Below are positions 47,676-64,000 of a stretch of 64,000 nucleotides of DNA, piece after piece. The translations under genes and the position numbers were made by a program. Location of the stretch: positions 1-64,000 of the forward strand of contig JAKUQR010000003.1 in the NCBI GenBank assembly GCA_022450155.1, read 5' to 3'. Numbering within the stretch: position 1 is the stretch's first letter; each line of letters begins with the position of its first letter. A model generated the notes under the pieces. It saw only the letters and a program-made list of their open reading frames with translations, ran no database searches and was not told the origin of the DNA. The DNA is from Gammaproteobacteria bacterium (lineage in GTDB: Bacteria > Pseudomonadota > Gammaproteobacteria > Arenicellales > UBA868).

Positions 47676-48113
47676 TCAAAGAGTGATCCGATGGGTTTCA
47701 AGTTCCAGCCCCTGATCCCGATAGAACTTGAATCGGGACCGACCGGACTGTTTTTCGGCTTCACCAAAACCAACAACTTCGGCGATTCTCAGAAAATTGG
47801 AATAATCTTCAACCGGTCGGTCAGCTACAGACACCACGACCTCCGCAGATCCCGATTGGGGCGGGTGATGGCCAATATGCACCGGGGTGGTGAGATCAGA
47901 ATTGTGACTGTTTCGACTATGCGGGACAAAGCTGTTTTGTGAGAACGTCCATAACAGGTCATCGAGTAGGTCGGTTTCATGGTCATCACGAGCCCACAGA
48001 TAGGCCGTATGTCCGCTGCGATAGGCACGATCGATGATTTTGCATGCGAGCCTTAAGCGCCCATCAGTTGCATCTGCTTCGAGAACATAAAAATCTATAC
48101 GCACTGCAGTCAT
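47676..48113 (-). CDS. holC: DNA polymerase III chi subunit
   Basis: Clamp-loader accessory subunit that links the polymerase III holoenzyme to SSB. The 145 residues show the family pattern: RIDFYVL at the N terminus, ACKIIDRAYRSGHTAYLWA, LLDDLLWTFSQNSFVPH, and FLRIAEVV near the C terminus. It follows pepA by 11 bases, the standard pepA-holC-valS order. Confidence 0.92.
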   Translation of the reverse strand: MTAVRIDFYVLEADATDGRLRLACKIIDRAYRSGHTAYLWARDDHETDLLDDLLWTFSQNSFVPHSRNSHNSDLTTPVHIGHHPPQSGSAEVVVSVADRPVEDYSNFLRIAEVVGFGEAEKQSGRSRFKFYRDQGLELETHRITL

Positions 48114-48124
48114 CAGATCATGGT

Positions 48125-49612
48125 TTAATTTGTCGATCGATTAATCAGGAACTGCGTCAGCAGGGGTACTGGTCGACCCGTTGCCCCAGTCTTGGTGTTC
48201 GTCTTCCAGGCGCTGCCGGCGATGTCCATGTGGGCCCACTTCATCTTTTCAGCAAAACGCGATAGAAAACAGGCGGCAGTGACGGCACCGGCTCCTCGAC
48301 CACCGACATTCGCCATGTCGGCAAATCCACTCTTAAGTTGTTCATGATATTCATCCCACAACGGCAATCGCCAGGCGCGGTCACGCGTTTGCTCACCCGC
48401 ATCGAGCAGTTGATCGGCGAGAGTGTCGTCATTGCTGAATACGCCGCTTGCCGGGTGACCCAGGGCGATCACACAAGCACCGGTTAGGGTGGCAATATCA
48501 ACAATTGCATCGGGTTTATAGCGCTCCGCATAGGTAAGCGCATCACACAATATGAGCCTGCCTTCCGCATCCGTATTGAGTATCTCAATGGTCTTACCGG
48601 ACATACTGGTGACGATATCACCGGGTTTGTTGGCGGCGCCATCGGGTAGATTCTCGCTACTGGGCACGATCCCTATCACATTAAGTGGCAGGTCAAGTTC
48701 GGCAACTGCACTTAAGGCGCCGAATACACTGGCACCGCCACACATATCGTATTTCATTTCTTGCATGCCGGCTGCAGGTTTAAGCGAAATACCGCCGGCG
48801 TCAAATGTAAGTCCCTTTCCAACCAGAACCACCGGGCGTTCACTTTGTGCGGCACCCCGGTGTTCTATGATGATGAACTTCGCGGGTTGTCGACTGCCCT
48901 GGGAGACCGACAGCAGGGATCCCATTTTGAGCTTTTCCATGCGTTTCTCGTCTAGAACAGTAACCTTCAATCCATGGCTTCGCTGCAGTTTTCGTGCCTG
49001 GGCGGCCAGGTAACTCGGTGTGCAGATATTGCCGGGCAGGTTGCTGAGATCTCGGGCCAGTTTTACACCATTTGAAATCGCCTGACTTTCGCGGATGGCT
49101 CGCCGGGCCCGCGCCGAAACTGCTCTTGAACCGACAGAAAATGTGACACGAGCGAGAGGGCGTTTGCTCTCTTTCGTGCTTTTAGTTTGATCGAACTGGT
49201 AAGTGGAATCGCACACTGCGGAGGCGAGGAGCCGCAGGCGCTCACTGACATCCCGGTCAGCAACTTCAGTTTCGGCCAAGGTCACCGTGGCGTTGCGTAT
49301 GGGTAACCGTGCGAGTGCAGTGGCTGCACTGTCCACGGCTTGTTTGTATTCGGCAACACCGGATTCGTGGGCTTTGCCCAAACCTACGGTAAGCACGCGC
49401 CGAGCCGGTCCATTGGGATGGCACGGAATCATCAGAATTGAGCCGCTGGTGCCTTTGATATCGCCGTCGTCGACCAGACGCTGGATGATGCCGCCCATCG
49501 ACTTATCGGCTTTTTTGGCACTTGCTGTCAGTTTCCCATCGTCTAGAATCCCGACAACCAGACAGTCGGTTTTGAGGCTTGTAGGGTCAGCGCTGGTGAG
49601 ATTAATTTTCAT
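48125..49612 (-). CDS. pepA: Leucyl aminopeptidase (cytosol aminopeptidase A)
   Basis: Hexameric M17 metallo-aminopeptidase; in E. coli also a DNA-binding architectural protein. 495 residues from the ATG at 49612, which has CAGGAG just upstream and starts MKINLTSADP. Zinc-ligand motifs: VGKGLTFDAGGISLKP, MKYDMCGGASV and the family signature NTDAEGRL. The frame extends 13 codons further upstream, but that start lacks support. Divergent from lptF, as in E. coli. Confidence 0.95.
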   Translation of the reverse strand: MKINLTSADPTSLKTDCLVVGILDDGKLTASAKKADKSMGGIIQRLVDDGDIKGTSGSILMIPCHPNGPARRVLTVGLGKAHESGVAEYKQAVDSAATALARLPIRNATVTLAETEVADRDVSERLRLLASAVCDSTYQFDQTKSTKESKRPLARVTFSVGSRAVSARARRAIRESQAISNGVKLARDLSNLPGNICTPSYLAAQARKLQRSHGLKVTVLDEKRMEKLKMGSLLSVSQGSRQPAKFIIIEHRGAAQSERPVVLVGKGLTFDAGGISLKPAAGMQEMKYDMCGGASVFGALSAVAELDLPLNVIGIVPSSENLPDGAANKPGDIVTSMSGKTIEILNTDAEGRLILCDALTYAERYKPDAIVDIATLTGACVIALGHPASGVFSNDDTLADQLLDAGEQTRDRAWRLPLWDEYHEQLKSGFADMANVGGRGAGAVTAACFLSRFAEKMKWAHMDIAGSAWKTNTKTGATGRPVPLLTQFLINRSTN

Positions 49613-49728
49613 GGGGCTCCTGTGATAGATCAGCGGCAGTAGCAATGGCACTTGCCATTTTCATAGAATGAAGCAGTATTGTGGTGGTTTAATCACGATT
49701 CTGTCAAAAGAAGGTTGCAATTCTACAA

Positions 49729-50844
49729 ATGATTCTTAGACGGGCGTTTGTCCGGGAAGTATTGCTGACCAGTGTTGCTGTTACGCTGGTTATGCTGATG
49801 ATCTTTATTGTTGTTCGGGCGCTCGGTTTCCTCCGCCAGGCAGCAGAAGGCATGATTCCCGTAGACAGCATCTTTTTGCTGTTGTTGCTTAAAGTAATGA
49901 CTTACATGGATGTTATTCTCCCACTGATGGTCTTTGTGGCTATCCTGATGGTTCTGGATCGCTGGAGCCGCGACAATGAAACCGTCATTATGGCAGCGTC
50001 CGGGTACAGCCCTGGCCATCTGCTCAAACCAGCTGCTTTTTTGCTGATGGTGTCGGCTCTGGTCGTAGGCGGATTTTCGTTTTATCTGTCGCCACTGGCG
50101 GTTCGTGTCGGGGGAGCAATTGAGCACGAATTCCGTACAGGCAAAGAGGTCAGCGGCATTATGGCAGGTGTGTTTACAGAAACACGAAACGGCCGGGGGG
50201 TTTATTTTGTGGAGACAGCAGACAACGACCTGTCGGTGTATGAACATGTATTTATTTATGGGTCTGATGCGACTCAGGACGGGGTCGTCGTGGCTGCGAC
50301 TGCACGGCAGGAGCAGGACAGCAACTCCGCTGGTCGTTTTCTGGTTCTGGAGAATGGCGTTCGCTATGAAGGCGTGCCGGGTGACCCAGCGTATCGGGTG
50401 ATTGAATTTGAGTCTTATGCGATTCGGCTGTTGTCTGACCTGGTGCCAGAGCCGCCAGTCCCATTGCGGGGTCGGCGCAACCAGGAACTGTGGCAGCAAT
50501 ACGGTCTAGTAGGCTACGGTGCATTGGCTCGGTCGGAACTGCATTGGCGACTCTCAAAGGTTGTTGTTTTGCCCGTTATGATTCTGTTTGCGTTGGGGCT
50601 TGGTCATATCAGCCCCGGTCGGGGTCGATTGCCGGCAATCATAGCGGCGCTAGCGATCTATTTCTGTTACACCAATGTAGCCGGCCTTGCCGTAGCCACA
50701 ATCCGTAAAAGCACGACGCTGTCTCCCACCATTGGCCTTTGGACACTGCACCTGGTGTTCGCAGTGGTGGCGATTTACCTTTTCTGGTGCAGGACAGCCA
50801 ACCGGCCTCTGCTGAGCCTGAAACGATCTCCTGCCGGGTCATGA
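49729..50844 (+). CDS. lptF: LPS export permease LptF
   Basis: Inner-membrane half of the LptB2FG ABC exporter that extracts LPS from the membrane. 371 residues with three N-terminal membrane helices, a periplasmic jellyroll domain (about 130-265) and three C-terminal helices; family motif YSPGHLLKPA and LGHISPGRGRLP. lptG follows after four bases. Divergent from pepA. Confidence 0.94.
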   Translation: MILRRAFVREVLLTSVAVTLVMLMIFIVVRALGFLRQAAEGMIPVDSIFLLLLLKVMTYMDVILPLMVFVAILMVLDRWSRDNETVIMAASGYSPGHLLKPAAFLLMVSALVVGGFSFYLSPLAVRVGGAIEHEFRTGKEVSGIMAGVFTETRNGRGVYFVETADNDLSVYEHVFIYGSDATQDGVVVAATARQEQDSNSAGRFLVLENGVRYEGVPGDPAYRVIEFESYAIRLLSDLVPEPPVPLRGRRNQELWQQYGLVGYGALARSELHWRLSKVVVLPVMILFALGLGHISPGRGRLPAIIAALAIYFCYTNVAGLAVATIRKSTTLSPTIGLWTLHLVFAVVAIYLFWCRTANRPLLSLKRSPAGS

Positions 50845-50848
50845 GCTG

Positions 50849-51922
50849 GTGAAACTGATCGACATTTATATCGGCCGCACTATTGTTCAACAGTCGTTAC
50901 TGGTTATAGCGGTTCTGGCCGGGATATTTGTTTTTCTGAATTTTATCGACCAGCTGTCTGACTTGGGGTCAGGGTCGTATGGTTTGCTTGATGCACTGCG
51001 GTTTGTCTTGCTCACCACGCCACGGATTATCTATGACATCTTTCCGATGGCTGGCCTGGTAGGGACGATCCTTGGACTTTCAGTATTGGCGCGACATTCC
51101 GAACTGACCGTCATGAGAGCCAGTGGTATTTCACTCGGCCAGATTACAGGTTCAGTCCTTAAAGTGGGCGCAATCTTTGTGCTCCTGGCTGTGGTGATAG
51201 GTGAACTCGTGAGCCCGTTCACTGAGACGCTGGCGCAGCGCGGTCGGATCGAAGCGCTGGAACGCAATATCGAGCAGAAACACAGCTCTGGTCTGTGGAT
51301 GCGTGACAAGAGCACATTTGTCAATGTTGCTGAAGTGTTGCCTGATCTCAGTCTGTTGCGGATCAAGATTTTTGAGTTTGATCGCAAGGACCGTGATCGA
51401 CTGGTATCGCTGACCTATGCGCGTAGCGGCCACTACAACCAAGATCGTTGGCAGCTGAACGATGTAAGGCAGACGATCATTGATGAGAAAGGCCGTGCTG
51501 ACGTCCACCATGTTATTCAGTCAGCCTGGGTAACAGAAGTGACGCCAGGGATGATGTCAGTTTTCTTGGTGCAGTCTGGACAGCTGCCCCTGTGGCAACT
51601 CAAGAGGTATATCGAGCACCTGAAATTAAACGCTCAGGACACCAGGGCATACGAGTTGGCCTATTGGGGTAAAGTGGTTTTGCCGCTGTCGACGGCTGTG
51701 ATGCTGATACTCGCTGTACCTTTTGTATTCAGCAGTATTCGTGCCGGTAGTCTTGGGCGGAACCTCTTCCTGGGAATCATGGTTGGGTTGGGGTTTTACG
51801 TCTTGAACAAAGCGTTGGGGTATATCGTACTTGTTTACGGCGTACACCCGTTTATCGGTGCAACGTTGCCGACGCTGCTGTTTCTTGGTGGTGCACTGAT
51901 CCTGTATCGCCGCGTGGCCTGA
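50849..51922 (+). CDS. lptG: LPS export permease LptG
   Basis: Second membrane subunit of LptB2FG. 357 residues with the same 3+3 helix plan; LARHSELTVMRASGISLGQI is the conserved coupling-helix region for LptB, and the periplasmic domain lies between the third and fourth helices. GTG start, four bases after lptF. lptB and the rest of the pathway are outside the window. Confidence 0.94.
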   Translation: MKLIDIYIGRTIVQQSLLVIAVLAGIFVFLNFIDQLSDLGSGSYGLLDALRFVLLTTPRIIYDIFPMAGLVGTILGLSVLARHSELTVMRASGISLGQITGSVLKVGAIFVLLAVVIGELVSPFTETLAQRGRIEALERNIEQKHSSGLWMRDKSTFVNVAEVLPDLSLLRIKIFEFDRKDRDRLVSLTYARSGHYNQDRWQLNDVRQTIIDEKGRADVHHVIQSAWVTEVTPGMMSVFLVQSGQLPLWQLKRYIEHLKLNAQDTRAYELAYWGKVVLPLSTAVMLILAVPFVFSSIRAGSLGRNLFLGIMVGLGFYVLNKALGYIVLVYGVHPFIGATLPTLLFLGGALILYRRVA

Positions 51923-51957
51923 GTCGGGCGGGAGTCACGCAAACCTGCGCACGAGGA

Positions 51958-51989
51958 GCGGCTGAACGGGCGCCTACCCGGTCAGCCGC
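51958..51989. terminator. Hairpin between convergent lptG and xsc
   Basis: GCGGCTGA pairs with TCAGCCGC, and within it CGGG with CCCG, separated by one mismatch: 12 pairs around a 6-base loop. It lies between the two convergent stops. No U-tract on either strand, so it is either a weak bidirectional terminator or a 3'-end-stabilising structure. Confidence 0.45.
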
Positions 51990-52001
51990 GGACAGTTGTG
52001 C

Positions 52002-53780
52002 CTAGCTGATCTGTTGCGGTTTCATGTCAGCCGCATCGATTCCGGCGACTGCAACCGGCGCTTTCATGGCGTCTCGTCGGAAGGGTTCGCCCAGTTCCTG
52101 ATTTAGAACAACCTCGATAAACGTAGTTGTGTTGTTATTCATCTGTTCTTGGATGGCAGTTCTCAGGGCGTCGGTCAACTCTTTCATGTCTCGGACCTTC
52201 ACTCCTTTCAAGCCGCACGCCTCGGCGACCTTGGCGTACTCCACGCCGACGTTCAACTCGGTACCAACGAAGTTATCGTTATACCAGAGGATGGTATTTC
52301 GTTTTTCAGCACCCCACTGGTAATTGCGGAAAACGACCATAGTGATTGGTGGCCATTCATTACGCCCGCAGGCGGTCATTTCGTTCATCGAAATGCCAAA
52401 GGCACCATCCCCGGCAAAGCCAACAACAGGCACATCCGGACAGCCAATTTTTGCCCCGAGTATCGACGGAAAGCCATACCCACATGGACCAAACAAACCG
52501 GGTGCCAGGTATTTACGACCTTGTTCGAAAGTTGGGTAGGCATTTCCAATCGCACAGTTGTTCCCAATATCAGAAGAGATAATTGCTTCTTTGGGAAGTG
52601 CCGCCATAATGGCGCGCCAGGCTTCGCGGGGGGACATGCAGTTCGGTTCACGATCACGTGAATGCTGGTTCCAATTGGTGCCTGGATCATCATCTTCATG
52701 AACCATGGATGCCAGTTCTTCCTGCCAGCCTGATTTGGACTGGGCGATCAGTTCGCGGCGTGCATCACGATCTGTGTCCCCTGCGTTGTCTGAGAGTTGT
52801 TCGTAGATCTGATCGGCAACCCGACGGGCATCACCCTGGATCGCAACGTCTACTTTTTTGGTCAGCCCGATGCGGTCTGCATTGATGTCCACCTGAATGA
52901 TGCGGGCGTTTGCTGGCCAGTAATCGATTCCGTAGCACGGCAGTGTTGAGAAAGGGTTGAGGCGAGTGCCCAGTGCCAGTACGACATCGGCCCTGGATAT
53001 GAGTTCCATAGCGGCTTTTGAGCCGTTATAACCCAGCGGACCGACAAAAAGCGGGTGAGAACCATAGAAGGCATCGTTGTGCTGGTAGTTACAGCATACT
53101 GGCGAGTCAAGTTTTTCCGCCAGTGCCCTGGAGGACTCGATTGCGCCGCTGAGAACTACTCCCGCACCATTTAGAACTACCGGAAATTGGGCATCGGATA
53201 GAAGTTTCGCTGCTTCTGCGATGGCGTTCTTTCCACCCGGTGAGCGTTCCATACGAATAATCTGTGGCAGTTCAATATCGATCTCATGAGTCCAGTAGTC
53301 TCGTGGGACATTGATCTGAGCAGGTGCAGATTCGCGACGTGCTTTCTCAATCACCCGATTCAGGACTTCGGCAATACGGGAAGGTTCGCGTACTTCCTCC
53401 TGGTAGCAGACCATGTTCTCGAACACGGCCATCTGTTTTACTTCCTGAAAACCGCCTTGCTCTATGGTCTTGTTGGCGGCCTGAGGCGTTACAAGCAGCA
53501 ACGGCGAATGGTTCCAGTATGCGGTAATAATGGGCGTCACAAAATTTGTGATCCCGGGGCCATTTTGTGCAATCGCCATACTCATTTTTCCAGTGGCCCG
53601 CGTATATCCGTCAGCACTCATGCCGGCGTTACATTCATGCGCACAGTCCCAGAACTTAATTCCGGCAGCCGGAAACAGATCCGATATCGGCATCATCGCC
53701 GAACCGATGATGCCGAAGGCATGTTCAATGCCATGCATTTGCAGGACTTTTACAAATGCTTCTTCGGTGGTCATCTTCAT
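52002..53780 (-). CDS. xsc: Sulfoacetaldehyde acetyltransferase
   Basis: ThDP enzyme that converts sulfoacetaldehyde plus phosphate to acetyl phosphate and sulfite, the desulfonation step of taurine and related sulfonates. 592 residues from the ATG at 53780, with GGAG seven bases upstream; a TTG four codons earlier is less likely. E49 (AHECNAGMS) is the cofactor-activating glutamate, and GDGAFGISMNEMTACGRN is the ThDP/metal motif. IIGSAMMPISDLFP at the N terminus is typical of Xsc. ald lies 64 bases upstream in the same direction. Confidence 0.92.
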   Translation of the reverse strand: MKMTTEEAFVKVLQMHGIEHAFGIIGSAMMPISDLFPAAGIKFWDCAHECNAGMSADGYTRATGKMSMAIAQNGPGITNFVTPIITAYWNHSPLLLVTPQAANKTIEQGGFQEVKQMAVFENMVCYQEEVREPSRIAEVLNRVIEKARRESAPAQINVPRDYWTHEIDIELPQIIRMERSPGGKNAIAEAAKLLSDAQFPVVLNGAGVVLSGAIESSRALAEKLDSPVCCNYQHNDAFYGSHPLFVGPLGYNGSKAAMELISRADVVLALGTRLNPFSTLPCYGIDYWPANARIIQVDINADRIGLTKKVDVAIQGDARRVADQIYEQLSDNAGDTDRDARRELIAQSKSGWQEELASMVHEDDDPGTNWNQHSRDREPNCMSPREAWRAIMAALPKEAIISSDIGNNCAIGNAYPTFEQGRKYLAPGLFGPCGYGFPSILGAKIGCPDVPVVGFAGDGAFGISMNEMTACGRNEWPPITMVVFRNYQWGAEKRNTILWYNDNFVGTELNVGVEYAKVAEACGLKGVKVRDMKELTDALRTAIQEQMNNNTTTFIEVVLNQELGEPFRRDAMKAPVAVAGIDAADMKPQQIS

Positions 53781-53844
53781 GTTTATCTCCAAATGTCTAA
53801 CAATTAAGTAAAGTTGGCCGTTCTTTTGTTGGCAGGTCTAATCT

Positions 53845-54963
53845 TCAGTGTTTAAGGGCATCCACTGGATCGGTGAAATCATAGCCGAGAGCACGAGCTA
53901 CTTCCTGACAGGTGATTTTCCCGCCATGGACGTTAAGTCCGTTTCGAAGATGCGAATCATCCCTGAGCGCCTGACGATAACCGGCATCGGCCAGTTTCAG
54001 AACATGGGGGAGGGTGACATTGTTGAGTGCGTAGGTTGAGGTTCGCGGTACACCACCTGGCATATTGGCGACACAGTAATGAACCACGCCGTCGACCACG
54101 TAAGTCGGTTCAGCATGGGTTGTCGGCCTGGATGTTTCACAACATCCGCCCTGATCAATTGCAACGTCCACAATCACTGAGCCTGTTTTCATGCCGCGGA
54201 CCATGGCCGCCGTAACCAGCTTTGGGGCAGCCGCACCCGGGATCAGTACGCCGCCGATGACAAGATCAGCCTCCTGTACGTGGTGTTCAACGGCGTCCCG
54301 AGTCGAGAAGACCGAATTAGTCGAGCGGCCAAACTGTTGCCAGTGCGACTCGAGCACATCTGGATTGCGGTCGATAACCCAGACGTCCGCACCCATACCC
54401 ACCGCGATGTGAGTAGCGTGGGTCCCAACCACGCCTGCCCCCAGAATCACGACTTTGGCCGGATCAACGCCGGGCACACCGCCCAGGAGCATGCCTCGTC
54501 CACCATGTGGGTTTTCCAGGCAGTGGGCACCTGCCTGAATAGCCATACGCCCGGCAACTTTCGACATGGGTGCGAGCAGCGGCAGACCTCCCGACGGAGA
54601 GGTCACCGTTTCGTAAGCTATACATACAGCGCCAGAATCAACCAGATCAGAGGTCTGCTCAGGGTCTGGTGCGAGATGAAGGTATGTGAACAGCACCTGT
54701 TCTTCACGAAGTAGTTTGCGTTCCGGTTCCAGCGGTTCCTTCACTTTTACAATCATGTCGGCTTCGCCGAAGATCCGAGATGGGTCATCAATGACGGCTG
54801 CCCCAACAGAACGATAATCATCATCTGTTGCGCCGATACCTTCTCCGGCATTTTCCTGGACCTGGACGTCATGACCATGCGCTATCACCTCTCGCACACT
54901 GGCAGGTGCGAGGCCTACTCGGTATTCATGATTCTTGATTTCTTTTGGAATTCCGATCAGCAT
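53845..54963 (-). CDS. ald: Alanine dehydrogenase
   Basis: NAD-dependent oxidative deamination of L-alanine to pyruvate and ammonia. 372 residues with catalytic K75 and H96 at the positions known from the Mycobacterium enzyme, the NAD motif VILGAGVVGTHA, and DVAIDQGGC near the active site. Beside xsc and a pyruvate-dependent aminotransferase its likely job is to regenerate pyruvate from the alanine formed by transamination. Confidence 0.94.
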   Translation of the reverse strand: MLIGIPKEIKNHEYRVGLAPASVREVIAHGHDVQVQENAGEGIGATDDDYRSVGAAVIDDPSRIFGEADMIVKVKEPLEPERKLLREEQVLFTYLHLAPDPEQTSDLVDSGAVCIAYETVTSPSGGLPLLAPMSKVAGRMAIQAGAHCLENPHGGRGMLLGGVPGVDPAKVVILGAGVVGTHATHIAVGMGADVWVIDRNPDVLESHWQQFGRSTNSVFSTRDAVEHHVQEADLVIGGVLIPGAAAPKLVTAAMVRGMKTGSVIVDVAIDQGGCCETSRPTTHAEPTYVVDGVVHYCVANMPGGVPRTSTYALNNVTLPHVLKLADAGYRQALRDDSHLRNGLNVHGGKITCQEVARALGYDFTDPVDALKH

Positions 54964-55048
54964 AGACTTTCTCTCTATGTCAGAATGTTTTGAGTCGCAT
55001 CAAACTATTTGTGGACTATAGCAGTACGGTCAACAGGCGAGGCCAACT

Positions 55049-56359
55049 ATGAAATACGATCTCGAGTTTCTTGAAAACTACTGGATGCCGTTTACATCAA
55101 ACCGGGATTTTAAGGCTGATCCCCGACTCGTGGTGCGTGCAGAAGGAGTGTATATGTACAGCCACGAAGGAGAACGCATACTTGATGGCTCATCAGGCCT
55201 ATTCTGCTGCGCCGCCGGCCACAGTCGGCCGGAGATTGCCGAGGCGGTTTATAGCCAGTTGAAAGAGGCCGCCTACGTACCTCCCTTTCAGCTGAGTCAA
55301 CCCTTAGCGTTTGAACTTGCCCGACGGGTGTCACAGATGACACCGGTTGGCCTGGATCATATTTTCTTCGTCAATTCCGGTTCGGAATCGGTCGATACGG
55401 CCATGAAAATTGCCTATGCCTACCACTATGCCCGCGGACAAGGACAGCGCCAGCGATTCGTGTCCCGGGAACGAGCCTACCACGGCGTCAACATGGCGGG
55501 TGTGTCGTTGAGTGGCATGATCAAGAATCGGCAAGCCTTCGGCCCCGGCATCCCCGGGGTGGTGCATATGCGCCACACCTGGTTGCCCGAGAACCGGTTT
55601 GTCCGGGGACAGCCGGAGACTGGGATTGAGTTGGCGGATGATCTCGAACGAGCGGCAATGAACTACGGGCCGGACACGATCGCGGCCTGTATTGTTGAGC
55701 CGATTGCGGGATCGACCGGTTGCTTGGTGCCACCAAAGGGGTACCTGGAACGTTTGCGTGAAATTTGCGATACGCACGGGATTCTGTTGATTTTCGACGA
55801 GGTCATTTGTGGATTCGGTCGACTGGGTGCACCGTTTGCCGCCCAGGCATTTGGTGTCACCCCTGACGTGATGACCATGGCGAAGGCGATGACCAATGCT
55901 GCCCAGCCTATGGGGGCCGTGGCTGTAAGTGACAAAGTTCATTCGACAATTCTGGAGGCGGCACCGGAAGGTGCTGTGGAATTCTTCCACGGGTATACCT
56001 ATTCAGCACACCCGGCAGCCTGCGCGGCTGGGCTTGCCACCATGGACCTGTTCGAAAAAGAGGATCTGGTTGCACGCGCCAAGGCGCTTTCGCCGTATTT
56101 TCTGGATCAGGTGTATGCCTTAAGCGACCTGCAGATCATCACCGACATCCGCGGTTACGGGCTCTTCGCCGGCATCGATATATCGCCTGAAGGTGGCGCA
56201 GGCGTCCGAGGACTGGACTTCCAGAAACGGCTTTATCGTAACGGGCTGCACATCAAAATGACCGGGGATGCAGGCCTGCTGGCTCCACCGCTTATCGCCG
56301 AGCCTAAACATATAGACCGTATGTGTGAAATTCTGCGTCAGACACTCTTGGAATATTGA
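55049..56359 (+). CDS. Omega-amino acid:pyruvate aminotransferase (class III; probable taurine:pyruvate type)
   Basis: 436-residue PLP aminotransferase of class III. PLP lysine K279 (TMAKAMTN), D250 (LIFDEVICGFGR) for the pyridine nitrogen. N terminus YWMPFTSNRDF and the SGLFCCAAGHSRPEI segment resemble the beta-alanine:pyruvate group. Divergent from ald-xsc across 85 bases, so it is the best candidate to make sulfoacetaldehyde from taurine with pyruvate as acceptor; beta-alanine is an alternative substrate. Enzyme class is clear, substrate is inference from context. Confidence 0.85.
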   Translation: MKYDLEFLENYWMPFTSNRDFKADPRLVVRAEGVYMYSHEGERILDGSSGLFCCAAGHSRPEIAEAVYSQLKEAAYVPPFQLSQPLAFELARRVSQMTPVGLDHIFFVNSGSESVDTAMKIAYAYHYARGQGQRQRFVSRERAYHGVNMAGVSLSGMIKNRQAFGPGIPGVVHMRHTWLPENRFVRGQPETGIELADDLERAAMNYGPDTIAACIVEPIAGSTGCLVPPKGYLERLREICDTHGILLIFDEVICGFGRLGAPFAAQAFGVTPDVMTMAKAMTNAAQPMGAVAVSDKVHSTILEAAPEGAVEFFHGYTYSAHPAACAAGLATMDLFEKEDLVARAKALSPYFLDQVYALSDLQIITDIRGYGLFAGIDISPEGGAGVRGLDFQKRLYRNGLHIKMTGDAGLLAPPLIAEPKHIDRMCEILRQTLLEY

Positions 56360-56466
56360 TGATCTGGAGTTGCTGGCAGTAGGGTTAATTAGCAGAGATA
56401 TGAGATAGTTCTTACTCCGCTTGCGGCTTCAATTGTTAAGATGATTAAAGCTAGAAGGGGCAAAGG

Positions 56467-57666
56467 ATGGATAAGCAAAACACAAGTGCAAGAGAGAAGG
56501 CTACCAATCGCCGCCAGTTCATAAGGACCGTCTCAGTTACAAGCTGTGCAGCAGTTACGTTTCCTTGGATTATTCGCCCAGAAGTTTTAGCGGCATCAGG
56601 AACACTCAATGTGCTGATGTGGTCAGATTACCTTACACTGGGATTTCTGGAATCCTTCAAGGACAAGACTGGTATAAACGTTAACCACACGCCAATCGGT
56701 TCGAATGAAGAAATTCTATACAAAATGAAATCCACTAACGGTCGGGGTTTTGATATCTGTAGCCCCACCAATATGCGATCTCTGCAGTGGGAGCCTCTAG
56801 GTTTGTTACAACCATTTGATCGTAGTCGGATTAAAAACCTCAACAATGTAAACCCGGCGATGCTGGTGGTGGGTGACCAGGAATGGAATTTTGGTGGAAA
56901 CGGTTCCTACTGGTTGCCGCTTATCTGGGGCACAGAAGGTGTGGCCTGGCGCACGGACAAATGGATGCCACCGCGAGATGGCGAGATTCCCAGTTATGGG
57001 GATATCTGGCAACCGGATATGGAAGGAAAAACCATGATGAGTCCACATTCGGGTATGCTCGGTGCAGGCTTATACTTGGAGACAACCGGTGTCCTGGACG
57101 CTGGTGCCATGCGCAAGGCATATGCCGATGAAGCGATAATGCGCAAGACCTGGGCGGTTGTGACTGATTTCTGTATTAAGAACAAAACTCAGGTCAAACT
57201 ATTTTGGAACAATGCTGATACCCAGAGGAACGGTTTAATGGGCGGAGGTTTGGTTGTTGGTCAGACTTGGGAAGGTCCACCGATTACCTTGATGCAGAAC
57301 GGCGCCCCGGTTCAGTACCGAGCTCCAATAGAAGGATCACTGGCATGGATCGATGGAATGTCCCTCTCAGCCGCAGCCGACGATCTTGATTCGGTTTATG
57401 CATTTATCGACTACTGTTTCACACCGGAGCCGGCAGGCAAGTCAATCGATGGTGGTGGTGACAGTGATTGGGGGAGTCATGGCTACAACTCCGCCGTGCT
57501 TGGTGCTGATCGCTTTAGCAGTCTTAACCACAGTAAGATATTTTCATCAGTCTATCCAGGGAATTCTCTATTTAATCTGTGGCCGTGGCCAAGGGAGCCT
57601 CAATGGTACGCTGACGTGCGAACCGAATACCGTAATAAATTTGTCAACGCCTGGCTCGCCCAGTAG
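56467..57666 (+). CDS. Periplasmic solute-binding protein, PotD-like, Tat-exported
   Basis: 399 residues. A twin-arginine signal (NRRQFIR, R15-R16, followed by a hydrophobic stretch to about residue 43) precedes a mature domain of the spermidine/putrescine PotD/PotF type: LNVLMWSDYLTLGFLESF, the YKMKSTNGRGFDICSPTN region and EGSLAWIDGMSLSAAADD. The ligand could be a polyamine or another small cation. No permease or ATPase genes lie nearby in the window, and a methionine-synthase-like gene follows after 15 bases, presumably in one transcript. Confidence 0.82.
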   Translation: MDKQNTSAREKATNRRQFIRTVSVTSCAAVTFPWIIRPEVLAASGTLNVLMWSDYLTLGFLESFKDKTGINVNHTPIGSNEEILYKMKSTNGRGFDICSPTNMRSLQWEPLGLLQPFDRSRIKNLNNVNPAMLVVGDQEWNFGGNGSYWLPLIWGTEGVAWRTDKWMPPRDGEIPSYGDIWQPDMEGKTMMSPHSGMLGAGLYLETTGVLDAGAMRKAYADEAIMRKTWAVVTDFCIKNKTQVKLFWNNADTQRNGLMGGGLVVGQTWEGPPITLMQNGAPVQYRAPIEGSLAWIDGMSLSAAADDLDSVYAFIDYCFTPEPAGKSIDGGGDSDWGSHGYNSAVLGADRFSSLNHSKIFSSVYPGNSLFNLWPWPREPQWYADVRTEYRNKFVNAWLAQ

Positions 57667-57681
57667 AGGAGAGGTATTGCT

Positions 57682-58734
57682 GTGGTCAAGACCACCTGTA
57701 TCGGTGCCTACCCAAAACCGGATTACGTAGACCTTCCGGACTGGTTCAACCACCCTGACGGCCCAGATGCCACGGACCCGACAGAACGTTGGTCAGACGC
57801 TATGAATGCGCTTGGTGATGATGCGGAGAGCATCATCAGTAGAGGTGTCCAGGAAGTCATTGCAGACCAGATTGAAGCGGGGATTGATATTCCGACCGAC
57901 GGTGAGGTCCCACGCGAGAACTATATCCATTACCACTGCCGGCATATCAAGGGTATTGATTTTGGAGTTCTGACTGAGGTCTCTCTGAGGAACGGCGCTT
58001 ACAGTGCTCGATTACCAACCGTCAATGGACCGGTCAGTGCGCGAAATATTTTTCTGGTGCGGGACTGGAAACGCGCTCAGGGTTGTACCGACAGGCCGAT
58101 CAAAATCACAATTCCCGGACCAATGACCATCACCGATACCACCGCCGATGCGTACTACGATAACGCCGAGCGACTTGGTGCCAAGCTGGCGGATGCGTTG
58201 AATCGCGAAGTGATCGCTCTCGCAGAAGCCGGGTGCTCGAACATTCAGGTTGACGAACCGCTATTTGCGCGAAAACCCGCCGCTGCACTGGATTATGGTT
58301 TCGAAAACCTGGAACGTACCTTCCACCGATGTCCCAAGAATGTCATCCGTACGGTGCATATGTGCTGCGGCTACCCGGATCGGTTAGACAATCCGGATTA
58401 TCCTAAGGCAGATCTGGACAGCTACAACAAGCTGGCAGATGCTATCGAATACTCGTCTATCATGGCGGTGTCCTTTGAGGATGCACATCGCCACAATGAC
58501 TTATCGCTGCTGGATCGGTTCAACCAGACCCATGTCATCCTGGGTGTGATTGCAGTTGCCAAAAGTAAAGTGGAATCAGTGGGCGAAATCAGAGATCGAC
58601 TGGTGTCTGCGTTGGAACACATCGATGCGGATCGCCTGCTGGCTGCACCGGATTGCGGGCTGGGGCTCTTGAGTCGGGAGTTGGCTCGCTCAAAGTTGTC
58701 GAATATGTGTGAAGCGGTGCGCACCATTGGCTGA
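57682..58734 (+). CDS. Short cobalamin-independent methionine synthase-like protein (core MetE)
   Basis: 350 residues, matching only the C-terminal catalytic barrel of MetE (~750 residues). All zinc ligands are present: H226 and C228 (VHMCCGYP), E266 (SFEDAH) and C325 (APDCGLG). The homocysteine-binding signature appears as PTDGEVPREN (71-80) and the VDEPLFA loop is present. Lacking the N-terminal folate-handling half, it may take methyl groups from another donor such as a methyl-corrinoid or a methylated small molecule. GTG start with AGGAGAGG upstream, 15 bases after the binding-protein gene. Confidence 0.83.
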   Translation: MVKTTCIGAYPKPDYVDLPDWFNHPDGPDATDPTERWSDAMNALGDDAESIISRGVQEVIADQIEAGIDIPTDGEVPRENYIHYHCRHIKGIDFGVLTEVSLRNGAYSARLPTVNGPVSARNIFLVRDWKRAQGCTDRPIKITIPGPMTITDTTADAYYDNAERLGAKLADALNREVIALAEAGCSNIQVDEPLFARKPAAALDYGFENLERTFHRCPKNVIRTVHMCCGYPDRLDNPDYPKADLDSYNKLADAIEYSSIMAVSFEDAHRHNDLSLLDRFNQTHVILGVIAVAKSKVESVGEIRDRLVSALEHIDADRLLAAPDCGLGLLSRELARSKLSNMCEAVRTIG

Positions 58735-58743
58735 TGCGGCGAT

Positions 58744-59769
58744 CTAGGGCTTAGCTGGACGCCTTCGCAGGGTTGAAGTGGGGATGAACCCCTGGTTGAT
58801 GTCGGCAGTATCGTTGTAACCAAAAACACCTTCAAGTTTGAATGTAATGCGATAGGTCATATCGTGATCATCGACAGCGGGAAAGCGCACAGCCGGTTCG
58901 ATCTCCCAGAACAACCAGTCCCGACCGGTTGTCCTGCGGTATTTTGCCTTTAGAACAACATCATTCAGTTCTCCCGGTTTGTTTCGGTAGAAGAACTCCG
59001 CACCATACGCTATGGCGTGTCTGGTTCGCTGTCTGAGTCTCTCATAGAGCGTGAAGTACTGATCGATGCATATACCGTCATTGCATTTGTCGGTGTTGTT
59101 CTGGTACCAGCGAATCTGGGTTGTGGGCCGGAAAAAAAACCTGGTCGACAAAGGCCAGTCAAATGTAATTTGACCCCGGTATTCAGTTTTGGCTTTAGTG
59201 AAATAGTGTATTGAGTTCGTGACGCTGGGAACCCAGCGGCTGTCCCTGTCGAAAGTCAGGCGATGTCGTGCGCGCCCGAACAACTGGTAACTACCGGCTC
59301 TTTTGCGGAAACCAACATCAAAGCGCAGCTGCCGCATCGGATCCGTACCGGGCGGCCTGATCCGAAGGCTGATGTTCTGATCCTCGGTATTGACTGAAGC
59401 CGTCGAATCATCGTCCTGGCCGAAAATGATCTGTAATCGATGTTCGGTCCTGGGCAGCGAAAGTTTACCGCGAATACCCACTGAGAACTGTTCATCGTCA
59501 TTTCCATCAGCTCGCATTTTGACGTATACACGAAGGCGTGTTTCCTGGCCTTCGTCGTCAATTATTTCGTTAGAGAAGAATCGGTCAATCCGATCTGCTG
59601 TATCGAGAGTTATTCTGGACCACTTATCGTGCCCGGCAGCAATTGTGTTGAAAGATACGTCGCTCTGGTCAGCATGCGCACGGTTGCCTGTCGATGACAG
59701 GACGATTCCCATGATCAGGGTCAAACAGGCAGCGAATATCGGCACGGCCCGGTTAGTGCAGTTCAGCAC
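58744..59769 (-). CDS. Unrecognised exported protein, probably an outer-membrane barrel
   Basis: Not recognised. From the GTG at 59769 it has 341 residues: signal peptide VPIFAACLTLIMGIVLSS ... AHA, then a mature part of alternating polar/aromatic strands with short turns (RFFFRPTTQIRWYQNN, TYRITFKLEGVFGY), suggestive of a beta-barrel. The frame continues to an ATG at 59829, overlapping the upstream gene by 67 bases; the GTG overlaps its stop by seven bases (GTGCTGA) and gives a normal signal length, so coupling is likely. A C-terminal proline/arginine-rich tail follows the last strand. Confidence 0.65.
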   Translation of the reverse strand: MLNCTNRAVPIFAACLTLIMGIVLSSTGNRAHADQSDVSFNTIAAGHDKWSRITLDTADRIDRFFSNEIIDDEGQETRLRVYVKMRADGNDDEQFSVGIRGKLSLPRTEHRLQIIFGQDDDSTASVNTEDQNISLRIRPPGTDPMRQLRFDVGFRKRAGSYQLFGRARHRLTFDRDSRWVPSVTNSIHYFTKAKTEYRGQITFDWPLSTRFFFRPTTQIRWYQNNTDKCNDGICIDQYFTLYERLRQRTRHAIAYGAEFFYRNKPGELNDVVLKAKYRRTTGRDWLFWEIEPAVRFPAVDDHDMTYRITFKLEGVFGYNDTADINQGFIPTSTLRRRPAKP

Positions 59770-60215
59770 AAGACTGAGAACCACTTCCGGGTTACCGGAG
59801 ACTGATCGACGCGCATCCTGATTTCCCATCGACCGATAAATTCGCCCATGCCCAAAGCCGGATTAAAGGCGCTCAAGAGAGCCGCACCCGCAGGCGGATG
59901 CAGTTTCAGCCACACTGTGATGCGAATACTGCCTGCTCTATGAAAGGTATGGGTGGTCTGCTCCCGCCGTGTTCCGGAAGGGTCGATCCAGTCAACGTTG
60001 AGGGTATGTTCACCATTGCGCAATCCTTCGATGTCAATCACGGAAAAAATTTTGTCAGCGCAGTTGAATTCGCCGCTCAGAGACGGGACGGGAACTCCGT
60101 TCTCAATTGAGCGGGTAACAAAGGCATCCAGTGATGTTACCGCCATGGCCGGAGAAACCAGACAACATAGCACAAGTACAATCCAACGGCCGGGCATGAA
60201 ATGGCAACCGGGCAT
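59763..60215 (-). CDS. Unrecognised small periplasmic protein
   Basis: Not recognised. About 150 residues from the ATG at 60215 (alternative ATG 60197): signal peptide WIVLVLCCLVSPAMA, then a beta-rich domain (GEHTLNVDWIDPSGT, SIRITVWLKLHPP, FIGRWEIRMRVD) that looks like an immunoglobulin-like or carbohydrate-binding-type sandwich. Starts 13 bases after the stop of the aminotransferase gene and overlaps the start of the barrel-like gene, so the three form one reverse-strand unit. Confidence 0.62.
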   Translation of the reverse strand: MPGCHFMPGRWIVLVLCCLVSPAMAVTSLDAFVTRSIENGVPVPSLSGEFNCADKIFSVIDIEGLRNGEHTLNVDWIDPSGTRREQTTHTFHRAGSIRITVWLKLHPPAGAALLSAFNPALGMGEFIGRWEIRMRVDQSPVTRKWFSVLC

Positions 60216-60228
60216 TTGTGGGTACCCG

Positions 60229-61608
60229 TCAGGCGGCTTTTCGTAAAAACCCCTCGGTTTCAGTGACAGCCGCTGCAAGTTTGTCGAACAGTTCATCGAC
60301 TTGCGTGTTTTCAATAATGAGTGGTGGGCAAATGCCGATCACATCTCCCGGCAGGGCGCGGACGACCAGGCCCCTGGCCAGGGCACTGGCTGCCAGGGCA
60401 GGTGCGGCCTTTGCTTCAGGCGAGAACTGTGCTCGGCTCGACTTGTCGGACACCAGTTCCAAAGCTGCAATCAGTCCAACACCTCGAGCTTCACCAACGA
60501 TGGAACTGTCCGAGAGCTCACTGAGTCGCTCTAGAAAATGGGGGGCCACGGACTGAACATGACCGATCATGTCTCGCTCTTCGTAGATCTTGAGTGTCTC
60601 GATTGCAACGGCACAGGAAACCGGGTGCCCCCCATAGGTATAGCCCATGCCGAATGCGCCATGCTTACGGCTTTGTTCCTTTATTACATCGTAGATCTTC
60701 TCAGAGATCATCAGGGCTGAAATTGGAAGATATCCGGATGACAGTTGTTTGGCGCAGGTGACCATGTCAGGTCGGATATCGTAGGTATCACATCCCCACA
60801 TTTTGCCGGTTCGACCGAACCCGCAGATAACCTCGTCGGCAACCATCAGTATGTCGTACTTGTTAAGCACCACCTGGATTTTTGGGAAATAGGTGGCCGG
60901 TGGCAGGATTACGCCGCCTGCACCCATGATTGGTTCAGCAACAAAAGCCGCTACGGTTTCAGGTCCTTCCTGCAGTATGAGCTGTTCCAGACTGTTGGCG
61001 AGCCGAGTGGAGAAGGCCTCCTCGCTTTCGCCTGTTTCTCCAAAGCGATAGAAATTGGGCGTGTCGGTCTGCTTCATTCGATCAAGCGGAAGATCAAAAT
61101 CATTCTGCATCAAGGGGATTGCAGTCAGGCTGCCGCTAGCGACTGTCACCCCATGGTATCCGCGAAGCCTCGAGATAATTTTCTTTTTGTCCCTAAGGCC
61201 GCGGCCATTGTTGTAGTACCAGGCAAATTTAATCGCTGAATCGATCGCTTCTGAGCCTGAATTGAGGAAAAACGCGCGGACCATGTCGCTGGGTGCGATC
61301 GATATCAGCCGTTCGGAGAGTTCAATCACCGGTTCGGTGGAGCGGTGGGCAAAGGTATGGGAATAGGGCAGAACGGCGAACTGTCGGGCTGCTGCATCAG
61401 CCAGCCGGCTCTCGGAGAATCCCAGTGACACACACCACAGACCGGCCAATCCCTCCAGATACTGGTTGTCGTTGTCATCCCAGACGTAGATACCGTCACC
61501 TCGGGTAATGACCAGTGGGCCCTGTTCCTCATGTGCTGCAAGGTTGGTATAGGGATGCAGGGTGTACGCGATGTCAGATTTTCGGTTACTGTTGGGATTG
61601 GAAACCAT
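60229..61608 (-). CDS. Class III aminotransferase (omega-amino acid:pyruvate type)
   Basis: 459-residue PLP enzyme. PLP lysine K287 (TCAKQLSSG), D258 (MVADEVICGFGRTG), LNSGSEA for the phosphate, and the HPYTNLAAHEEQGP N terminus shared with taurine-, putrescine- and beta-alanine-pyruvate aminotransferases. TAAGGAG lies eight bases before the ATG. Divergent from mmsA across 212 bases. It could therefore make malonate semialdehyde from beta-alanine for MmsA, or serve taurine in place of the gene at 55049; substrate unresolved. Confidence 0.85.
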   Translation of the reverse strand: MVSNPNSNRKSDIAYTLHPYTNLAAHEEQGPLVITRGDGIYVWDDNDNQYLEGLAGLWCVSLGFSESRLADAAARQFAVLPYSHTFAHRSTEPVIELSERLISIAPSDMVRAFFLNSGSEAIDSAIKFAWYYNNGRGLRDKKKIISRLRGYHGVTVASGSLTAIPLMQNDFDLPLDRMKQTDTPNFYRFGETGESEEAFSTRLANSLEQLILQEGPETVAAFVAEPIMGAGGVILPPATYFPKIQVVLNKYDILMVADEVICGFGRTGKMWGCDTYDIRPDMVTCAKQLSSGYLPISALMISEKIYDVIKEQSRKHGAFGMGYTYGGHPVSCAVAIETLKIYEERDMIGHVQSVAPHFLERLSELSDSSIVGEARGVGLIAALELVSDKSSRAQFSPEAKAAPALAASALARGLVVRALPGDVIGICPPLIIENTQVDELFDKLAAAVTETEGFLRKAA

Positions 61609-61774
61609 GGGTGCGACTCCTTAAGCGGCGACCTGATCTATTCTTAATGCGGGCCGCGATGTTAGCATGATCAGAATTGTGCACTGTAGTGGGCAGTCGA
61701 ACAAGGAATGCTTGTCCTCGAACGGCCGAAAGACCACAATTCAGGGTGTAGGAACCAGGACCAGATGGAGTGCA

Positions 61775-61793
61775 ACTGAGCATTATCCTCAGT
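61775..61793. promoter_or_regulatory. Possible operator before mmsA
   Basis: Perfect inverted repeat ACTGAG-N7-CTCAGT, 28 bases before the mmsA start in the divergent intergenic region. Only symmetry and position support it; no regulator gene is nearby. Confidence 0.25.
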
Positions 61794-61820
61794 GGTGGTT
61801 ATCGGAGGAAAGAGAAAAAC

Positions 61821-63338
61821 ATGGACGCTAAAGTCAAGATTACACTGAATCATTTCGTTGGGGGTAAGCAGATAGCGGGCACCAGCGGGCGTTTTGGAGA
61901 TGTGTATAACCCTGCCCTGGGCGAAGTCGCCAAACAGGTGCCCCTGGCCTCAGTGGAGGAAGTCCAGTCAGCCGTTGAAAATGCTGCAAACGCATTACCA
62001 GACTGGGCTGAAACCCCACCGGGTCGTCGGGCGCAAGTGCTCTACGCTTACCGGGAATTGCTCCACCGACACATGGACGAATTAGCCCTAATTGTGTCCG
62101 AGGAACATGGCAAGACGCTGGATGATGCGAAGGGTTCGATTACCCGCGGGCTGGAGGTGGTTGAGTTTGCCTGTGGTATACCGCAACTACTCAAAGGAGA
62201 GTATTCCGAGGGTGTTGCCGCTGGTGTCGACAGCTGGAGCATGCGTCAGCCGGTAGGGGTGTGTGCAGGCATTACGCCGTTCAATTTTCCTGCGATGGTG
62301 CCTATGTGGATGTTTCCCGTTGCGATTGCCTGTGGCAACACATTTGTGCTCAAGCCCTCTGAGCGTGACCCGTCCTGTTCTTTGCGCATGGCCGAATTGC
62401 TGAGTGAAGCCGGTCTGCCAGATGGTGTTCTGAACGTGGTTAACGGCGACAAAATCGCGGTAGATGCGTTGTTGACCAGTCCGACCGTGCAAGCGGTGAG
62501 TTTCGTCGGTTCGACAGCAGTGGGGGAGTACATTTACCAGACCGGATGCGAAAATGGTAAACGGGTTCAGGCATTGTGTGGTGCAAAAAACCACATGGTG
62601 GTGATGCCCGACGCCGACATGGGCCAGGCGGTCGATGCTGTGATGGGTGCCGCCTACGGTTCCGCTGGCGAGCGTTGTATGGCGGTATCTGTGGTAGTAA
62701 CTGTAGGTGATGACACGGCAGATCGGCTGATGAAGCAGCTCAAGCCACGAATTGAGGCCCTGAAAGTCGGTGCCTATGATCAGTCCGACGTAGAGATGGG
62801 CCCGGTGATCACACCCGATGCCCGCGACCGCATAAAAGGTTACATCGACCAGGGTGTCGACGAAGGTGCCGATCTGGTCGTCGACGGCCGGGATATTTCA
62901 GTTGGAGGATACGAGAACGGCTGTTTTGTCGGTGCCACGGTTTTCGACAAGGTCACGCCGGCGATGAAAATATATACGGATGAAATATTTGGTCCGGTAC
63001 TGTCTGTTGTCAGGGCGGGGAGTTATGAAGAGGCCCTGGACCTGGTCAACAAGCATGAATACGGAAATGGCACCGCGATATTTACCCGTGACGGAGACGC
63101 TGCCCGTGATTTCACGCATCGCGCGCGAATCGGCATGGTGGGCGTGAATGTGCCCATACCGGTACCCTTGGCCTTCCACAGTTTCGGTGGCTGGAAAAGG
63201 TCTCTGTTTGGAGATCACTATATTCACGGGCCCGAGGGCGTTCGCTTCTACACCCGGATGAAAACGGTGACGTCGCGGTGGCCCTCTGGTATACGCGAAG
63301 GCGCCGTCTACAACTTCAAGGCCGGCGGTGAGCACTGA
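61821..63338 (+). CDS. mmsA: CoA-acylating methylmalonate/malonate-semialdehyde dehydrogenase
   Basis: Oxidative decarboxylation of methylmalonate semialdehyde to propionyl-CoA or of malonate semialdehyde to acetyl-CoA. 505 residues from the ATG at 61821 (upstream frame to 61770 lacks homology-like sequence). Aldehyde dehydrogenase fold with catalytic C286 in GERCMAVS, FNFPAMVPMWMFPVAIACGN for the NAD site, and the MmsA-specific IPVPLAFHSFGGWKRS. Together with the divergent aminotransferase it suits beta-alanine breakdown (as BauA/BauC), though valine or myo-inositol degradation uses the same enzyme. Confidence 0.92.
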   Translation: MDAKVKITLNHFVGGKQIAGTSGRFGDVYNPALGEVAKQVPLASVEEVQSAVENAANALPDWAETPPGRRAQVLYAYRELLHRHMDELALIVSEEHGKTLDDAKGSITRGLEVVEFACGIPQLLKGEYSEGVAAGVDSWSMRQPVGVCAGITPFNFPAMVPMWMFPVAIACGNTFVLKPSERDPSCSLRMAELLSEAGLPDGVLNVVNGDKIAVDALLTSPTVQAVSFVGSTAVGEYIYQTGCENGKRVQALCGAKNHMVVMPDADMGQAVDAVMGAAYGSAGERCMAVSVVVTVGDDTADRLMKQLKPRIEALKVGAYDQSDVEMGPVITPDARDRIKGYIDQGVDEGADLVVDGRDISVGGYENGCFVGATVFDKVTPAMKIYTDEIFGPVLSVVRAGSYEEALDLVNKHEYGNGTAIFTRDGDAARDFTHRARIGMVGVNVPIPVPLAFHSFGGWKRSLFGDHYIHGPEGVRFYTRMKTVTSRWPSGIREGAVYNFKAGGEH

Positions 63339-63363
63339 TTACCGCTGCCATTAGAAGCAGGTG

Positions 63364-64000
63364 TCAGACGGAAGCTGCGTTATTACCGGCAATCCTGCCG
63401 AACACGGCGCCGTTGAGTAGGCCCGTACCCCCGGGGTAGTTGTGGTAGAAAATCCCGCCTACCAGTTCACCGGCGGCGAATAAACCGGGGATAGGGATCA
63501 GGTCTTCGTCGACAACCTGCGCCTGCGGCGTGATCCTCAGTCCACCGAATGTGAAAGTTATGCCACAGGTCACGCCAAAGGCCTCATAAGGCGGTGTATC
63601 CAGCGTGGTCGCCCAGTTCATCTTGTTTATCAACAGTCCGTCGGTTCGTCGCCCGTCTTTAACCGTCGGATCAAAAGGGATGTCGACTTTAACGGCTGTA
63701 TTGAATTCGGCGATGGTCCGAAGGAATGTTTCTCGATTCATACCCTGCTCTTCGCTGAGTCTGTCCGCCAGTTCCTCAAGACTGTCAGCCGCCACACGTG
63801 TAATCCGTCGGATACGATACTCATCGCGCATCAAGTGGGTGACTTTGGCATCGAAAACCTGCCACGCTGTTTGCCCGGGCTGTTCCAGGATACGGCCACC
63901 ATATTTGGCATAGGTATAGTTCCTGAAATCCGCACCCTCATCCAGAAAACGTTCGCCTTCATTGTTTACAACCAGCGAGAAGGGATAAGAGTGTTTCTGG
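63364..64000 (-). CDS. FAD-dependent dehydrogenase, tricarballylate dehydrogenase (TcuA)-like, 3' part
   Basis: C-terminal ~212 residues of a fumarate-reductase/succinate-dehydrogenase-type flavoprotein; the frame stays open to the window edge, so the N-terminal FAD Rossmann motif is outside. Visible: NNEGERFLDEGADFRNYTYA, FGGLRITPQAQVVD, and GLFAAGELVGGIFYHNYPGG ... LNGAVFGRIAG, the C-terminal FAD contact of this family. The GADFRNYTYAKYGG wording is typical of TcuA-annotated proteins; other 2-enoate reductases are possible. Converges on mmsA with 25 bases between. Confidence 0.82.
   Translation of the reverse strand, partial: QKHSYPFSLVVNNEGERFLDEGADFRNYTYAKYGGRILEQPGQTAWQVFDAKVTHLMRDEYRIRRITRVAADSLEELADRLSEEQGMNRETFLRTIAEFNTAVKVDIPFDPTVKDGRRTDGLLINKMNWATTLDTPPYEAFGVTCGITFTFGGLRITPQAQVVDEDLIPIPGLFAAGELVGGIFYHNYPGGTGLLNGAVFGRIAGNNAASV

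Follow-up and report, generated by a model that had tools for sequence, protein, structure and literature searches.

The main finding of this analysis was the wider catabolic setting of a MetE-like gene rather than the bare pair that it forms with the gene of a solute-binding protein (SBP). The window, meaning here the whole stretch of 64,000 nucleotides, covers positions 1 to 64,000 of contig JAKUQR010000003.1 in assembly GCA_022450155.1 (forward strand). The placement of the MetE-like gene in omega-amino-acid catabolism is very probable. Its product could be a zinc-thiol methyltransferase which takes the first methyl group off N-trimethylated omega-amino acids, an assignment that is plausible and proposed tentatively. 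The homology, the zinc site and the conserved gene association behind it were observed, and the quaternary substrate, the thiol acceptor and the order of the steps were deduced. With slightly less confidence, the protein might represent a further core-MetE family of cobalamin-free, O2-independent demethylases of quaternary omega-amino acids, used as one module across sulfonate, carboxylate and phosphonate operons of marine Gamma- and some Alphaproteobacteria.

The taurine/beta-alanine-type locus

The window locus is a taurine/beta-alanine-type catabolic locus. The assigned features were as follows, with bit scores and, where applicable, cut-offs in brackets.

52002..53792, minus strand: sulfoacetaldehyde acetyltransferase Xsc (TIGR03457, 931.2 bits, cut-off 676.4)
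53845..54963, minus strand: alanine dehydrogenase Ald (TIGR00518, 498.8 bits, cut-off 391.85)
55049..56359, plus strand: omega-aminotransferase of the AptA type (NF052567, 605.2 bits, cut-off 500)
56467..57666, plus strand: Tat-type PotD-like solute-binding protein SBP, 399 aa, ATG start (PF13416, 55 bits)
57682..58734, plus strand: MetE-like catalytic-domain protein, 350 aa, GTG start (PF01717, 109.3 bits)
58744..59829, minus strand: protein with no Pfam or NCBIfam match, overlapping 59763..60314
59763..60314, minus strand: protein with no Pfam or NCBIfam match, overlapping 58744..59829
60229..61608, minus strand: class III aminotransferase of the PRK06105 type (NF004767, 695.9 bits, cut-off 517)
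61770..63338, plus strand: CoA-acylating (methyl)malonate-semialdehyde dehydrogenase MMSDH (TIGR01722, 715 bits, cut-off 448.5)

The PRK06105-type enzyme is taken by us to be taurine:pyruvate aminotransferase (Tpa), and Ald would regenerate pyruvate for the transaminases. The pathways concerned share a common logic, in which H2N-CH2-CH2-X is transaminated and the aldehyde is then processed, X being a sulfonate (Xsc), a carboxylate (MMSDH) or a phosphonate (PhnY/PhnA). A separate aminoethylphosphonate cluster of PhnW, phosphonoacetate hydrolase and phosphonatase, all above the NCBIfam cut-offs, was found on another contig of the same genome (C13, locus L189:9487-12950). The two proteins with no match recurred near the operon, with 11 and 8 members, respectively, in 21 stretches of relatives. 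The taurine-type genes are adjoined by lptF and lptG (49729-51922, plus strand, over the NCBIfam cut-offs), an order that was also seen in locus L041.

The SBP and MetE-like genes were separated by 15 bases (57667-57681), as had been stated in the preliminary description, and the identical gap was present in a genome of the same genus (locus L031), the MetE-like protein of which was 93% identical. The promoter and terminator scan at the gene pair gave nothing above shuffled sequences, and no Rfam riboswitch match was obtained within 48000-64000 of the window. Co-transcription, proposed already from the spacing, is likely on the grounds of the spacing and the conserved operon.

Family boundaries and active site of the MetE-like protein

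PF01717 was the sole Pfam domain of the MetE-like protein, and its best NCBIfam scores were far under the cut-offs (PRK09121, 186.7 versus 392). PF08267, the N-terminal half of MetE, had 0 matches in the window's genome, with the control positive in 10 of 14 genomes; the protein is therefore neither a full nor a split MetE. The absence of the N-terminal half reported earlier was thus confirmed, and a split MetE was rejected.

Related loci were taken from the best 80 of 464 relatives, the closest ones, and the 121 loci were reduced to 92 distinct ones by identical MetE cores. The tree included 91 of the 92 proteins, those of at least 300 aa, and all 91 MetE-like rows formed one clade against two MesD rows. 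In the class-wide survey, 4 of 370 genomes gave matches of at least 519 bits, and the next best was at 201 bits. This gap in the scores and the single clade place the protein, as judged from the sequences, in a discrete, unnamed family with no assigned function, which was set apart by direct comparison with the sequences of MesD and MetE.

The AlphaFold2 model (pLDDT 92.4) matched the MetE/MesD structures with Z values of 28-44. The nearest fold was that of MesD 3rpd (Z 44.1, rmsd 2.0, 330 residues aligned, 32% identity), and the catalytic half of MetE gave a Z of about 35. The zinc ligands H226, C228, E266 and C325 matched the MetE and MesD ligands in the alignment and were identical across 35/35 family members, in agreement with the earlier claim that all four are kept. 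The protein has both the catalytic TIM barrel and the His-Cys-Glu-Cys zinc site that define the MetE/core-MetE superfamily. The homocysteine site, also described as kept, was found to be incomplete. The equivalents of Glu484 and Asp599 among the core-MetE contacts listed in PMC7857596 (Ser433, Glu484, Asp599) were present as the amine contacts E75 and D191, invariant in 35/35 members, but the carboxylate-binding serine (Ser433 of E. coli MetE) was replaced with alanine in 35/35. The serine was retained in 2/2 MesD proteins encoded beside DUF1852 and in 2/2 MetE proteins aligned, and the four paralogues in the window's genome have GSL at the equivalent place. With this substitution, the acceptor thiol may be one other than homocysteine. 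Residues E79, N80 and H83 (35/35) and H85 (34/35) were specific to the family.

MesD (PDB 3rpd) is a methionine synthase that works independently of folate (Price et al. 2021, PMC7857596). A MesD-type core methionine synthase with an unspecified methyl donor, which travels with catabolic operons that supply one-carbon units, would agree with the nearest fold, with the retained zinc ligands and two of the three homocysteine contacts, and with a genome that has no full or split MetE. This alternative is nevertheless rather unlikely. The identity to the MesD-type proteins, which were plasmid-borne and encoded beside DUF1852, was 32-34%, far under the ~55% used by Price et al. for MesD assignment (PMC7857596), the serine is an alanine in every member, and a separate MesD-like paralogue (32% identity) is present in the window's genome. 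The MesX partner (DUF1852, PF08908) had 0 matches in this genome, a weak argument as the control also matched in 0/14 genomes.

Gene neighbourhoods and the binding protein

Among the 92 distinct loci, 50 were flanked by 5 kb or more of sequence in both directions. In these 50, Pot genes were detected in 28, Xsc in 16, AptA in 20, MMSDH in 24, a dimethylglycine-dehydrogenase-like (DMGDH-like) flavoprotein in 12 and any Phn gene in 11; the rates are inflated because the neighbour-family HMMs were derived from these very MetE-like loci. PotA was left uncounted, as its cluster was mixed with other ABC ATPases. At least one of the Pot, taurine (Xsc), beta-alanine (AptA/MMSDH), Phn and DMGDH-like sets was found in 42/50 loci, a count that is partly circular because the families were chosen for their recurrence in these loci, and 8/50 had none, which counts against the demethylase proposal. 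The same families were absent from all 20 control neighbourhoods of a 30-35% identical paralogue in the same relatives' genomes (0/20), and none appeared either when only the 13 with flanks of 5 kb or more were counted. The Phn assignments were over the NCBIfam cut-offs (score/cut-off in bits: PhnW 585/401, PhnA 541/408, PhnY 799/636, PhnS2 511/393, PhnU2 782/593).

The order SBP-PotB-PotC-MetE-like on one strand was determined in 33/92 distinct loci, and the bare SBP/MetE-like pair is a local arrangement. At the window locus the SBP is an orphan, and the window's genome had no PotC orthologue (best match 26%). A plain polyamine operon with the permease and ATPase elsewhere, named in the preliminary description as the finding that would speak against the pair, was not what the relatives presented: in many of them PotA/B/C follow the SBP and lie between both genes, within one operon. 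At L031:3859-6436, in the same genus, ATPase-like and TauC-like permease genes stand between AptA and the SBP, in contrast to other genera, where PotABC comes after the SBP.

The MetE-like family was present in 52/100 genomes of relatives. The SBP at 700 bits or more was found in 34/52 genomes with the MetE-like gene versus 3/48 without, PhnW above its cut-off in 39/52 versus 10/48, and the DMGDH-like protein at 65% identity or more in 20/52 versus 5/48, the comparisons (Fisher) ignoring kinship and incomplete genomes. In the three SBP-only exceptions (G022, G028, G069) the contig ends short of, or within, the position expected for the MetE-like gene. The co-occurrence survey suggested earlier thus showed the association to be conserved. 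Xsc was located no more than 20 kb away in 15/52 genomes.

The minimum numbers of neighbour changes on the family tree were 19 for Pot, 10 for Phn, 12 for taurine and 13 for DMGDH, all inflated by truncated loci, which were scored as absent. The modules swap repeatedly on the tree and the MetE-like gene is constant. These swaps and the mixed modules indicate that one enzyme is paired with varied transporters and end pathways sharing a substrate type, an aminoethyl acid.

Against the demethylase reading, some relatives have the SBP but no MetE-like gene. In genus g6 (G008, G012, G014, G016), AptA adjoins the SBP, with neither the MetE-like gene nor PotABC; MMSDH was present in 4/4 of these loci, Ald in 3 and Xsc in 2, the remaining loci ending early. 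In G034, SBP-PotABC lies beside MocR and a class III aminotransferase, again with no MetE-like gene. The ligand of the transporter is therefore not always methylated, and the transporter probably serves unmethylated amines too. These genomes, and SAR11 PotD, which binds GABA according to the title of structure 8jv1, would suit an operon that takes up and degrades plain taurine or beta-alanine, the MetE-like gene being a hitchhiker or a methionine supply and methylation irrelevant. This is an unlikely explanation, as a passive hitchhiker would hardly be expected to stay constant with at least three changing modules and transporters.

A different zinc-dependent thiol alkyltransferase was also considered, comparable to epoxyalkane:coenzyme M transferase, whose substrate would be a thiol or thioether bearing a sulfonate or phosphonate and not an N-methyl group. 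The lost carboxylate serine, the family-specific residues and the nearby Xsc in 16/50 loci point in this direction, but the gene is also found with phosphonate and beta-alanine modules, which have no thiol step, and coenzyme M genes were absent among the annotated neighbour families. Such an enzyme is accordingly regarded as improbable.

The Tat export signal described earlier for the SBP was supported by the twin arginine R15-R16 in 27/27 orthologues. The AF2 model (pLDDT 72.6) gave a Z of about 25 to PotF and 24 to PotD, and sequence matches also place the protein in the PotD/PotF family, so that the term PotD-like holds for the fold and family. The ligand site is another matter. In the alignment to 1pot, the invariant aromatic/acidic amine pocket W52, D54, Y55, W268, W294, D296 corresponds to W34, E36, Y37, W229, W255, D257 in PotD numbering. 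The distal acids for the second amine, Asp168 and Glu171 of PotD, were replaced with H194 and M197 in 27/27 orthologues. Such a site would suit a ligand with a single amine terminus whose other end is of another kind, for example an omega-amino acid or a betaine.

A polyamine-type ligand and a methyl-corrinoid donor, as in the Dehalococcoides core MetE, had been mentioned among the options in the preliminary description. The PotD/PotF fold and the truncated MetE are compatible with this pairing, yet it is highly improbable: the distal polyamine-binding acids have been lost, the surrounding genes belong to taurine, beta-alanine and phosphonate metabolism with no recognised corrinoid or polyamine genes among them, the protein is not MesD, its nearest published family, by identity, site or context, and the setting, as far as seen, is not an anaerobic Wood-Ljungdahl one. 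The accompanying suggestion that the imported ligand is the methyl source appears to fit the wider setting best.

A few further neighbours were observed. In L074, L076, L077 and L119, all with PhnW nearby, the gene immediately preceding the MetE-like one encodes a PehA-like sulfatase-fold hydrolase (512 bits in L076 versus the PehA cut-off of 900), which perhaps releases the substrate from an ester. Among the loci with no listed family, the MetE-like gene is near a FlxJ-type methyltransferase in L103 and beside a CmcJ/NvfI-type oxidoreductase in L116. In the alphaproteobacterial L129 (3523-4890, plus strand), a look-alike of uroporphyrinogen-decarboxylase-type methyltransferases, recognised by eye, lies ~5 kb upstream of an SBP/MetE-like pair.

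Proposed demethylation and comparison with known systems

In the proposed pathway, the SBP, with PotABC in many relatives, would import zwitterions such as the candidate substrates taurobetaine, beta-alanine betaine and/or trimethyl-2-aminoethylphosphonate. Zinc would activate a thiol, most likely homocysteine, which would attack a methyl group on the quaternary nitrogen in the manner of betaine-homocysteine methyltransferase. The remaining methyl groups would be stripped by the DMGDH-like flavoprotein, the DAO and GCV_T domains of which suggest N-methyl removal. The free amine would be transaminated by AptA, Tpa or PhnW, with Ald recycling pyruvate, and the breakdown would be completed by MMSDH, Xsc or PhnY/PhnA. 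The flavoprotein gene was immediately upstream of the MetE-like gene in 5/92 loci. Its presence in the scanned stretch of only 12/50 well-flanked loci counts against the demethylase reading; it was not near the MetE-like locus of the window, and the nearest protein of that type in the window's genome was 53% identical and on another contig.

Betaine-homocysteine methyltransferase and the Bmt-MtgB systems of marine bacteria belong to a protein family other than the MetE-like one. Bmt makes methionine directly from betaine and DMSP (PMC12366255), and by analogy a zinc-thiol methyltransferase would provide the missing first step for the omega-betaines. In the literature search, which had most subscription journals outside it, no paper was found on the SBP/MetE-like pair or on the family with a demethylase function. 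The search gave no match joining taurobetaine demethylation with bacteria, aminoethylphosphonate and methionine synthase with dimethylglycine dehydrogenase or a taurine gene cluster, or SAR11 PotD with GABA and taurine, and no abstract on bacterial dimethyltaurine breakdown among the matches listed.

If the proposal is true, one enzyme family demethylates trimethylated taurine, beta-alanine and aminoethylphosphonate, linking marine methyl, sulfur and phosphorus cycling. It would bear on the zinc-site core-MetE homologues of cosmopolitan marine bacteria, described as doubtful in function in PMC12478193, and on trimethyl-aminoethylphosphonate (trimethyl-AEP) degradation, for which iron oxygenases are the sole described route according to PMC10590968.

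Compared with MesD, the MetE-like protein shares the fold, the length of about 350 aa, the HCEC zinc ligands and the Glu and Asp contacts, and differs in its identity of about 33%, the Ala for Ser and the catabolic operon; no DUF1852 partner was found in the search of the genome, the control of which also gave no match. The SBP resembles PotD/PotF in the fold, the PotABCD operon type and the amine-end aromatic pocket, whereas His and Met stand for the distal acids and the signal is of the Tat type. PbfC/PbfD likewise stand in AEP gene clusters and oxidize N-methylated AEP, but these are FAD enzymes for secondary and tertiary amines, and according to PMC10590968 they showed no activity towards trimethyl-AEP. 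With betaine-homocysteine methyltransferase and Bmt-MtgB (PMC12366255, PMC12478193) the MetE-like protein would share the activated thiol that takes a methyl group from a quaternary onium compound, the substrates being glycine betaine and DMSP there and omega-betaines in our proposal.
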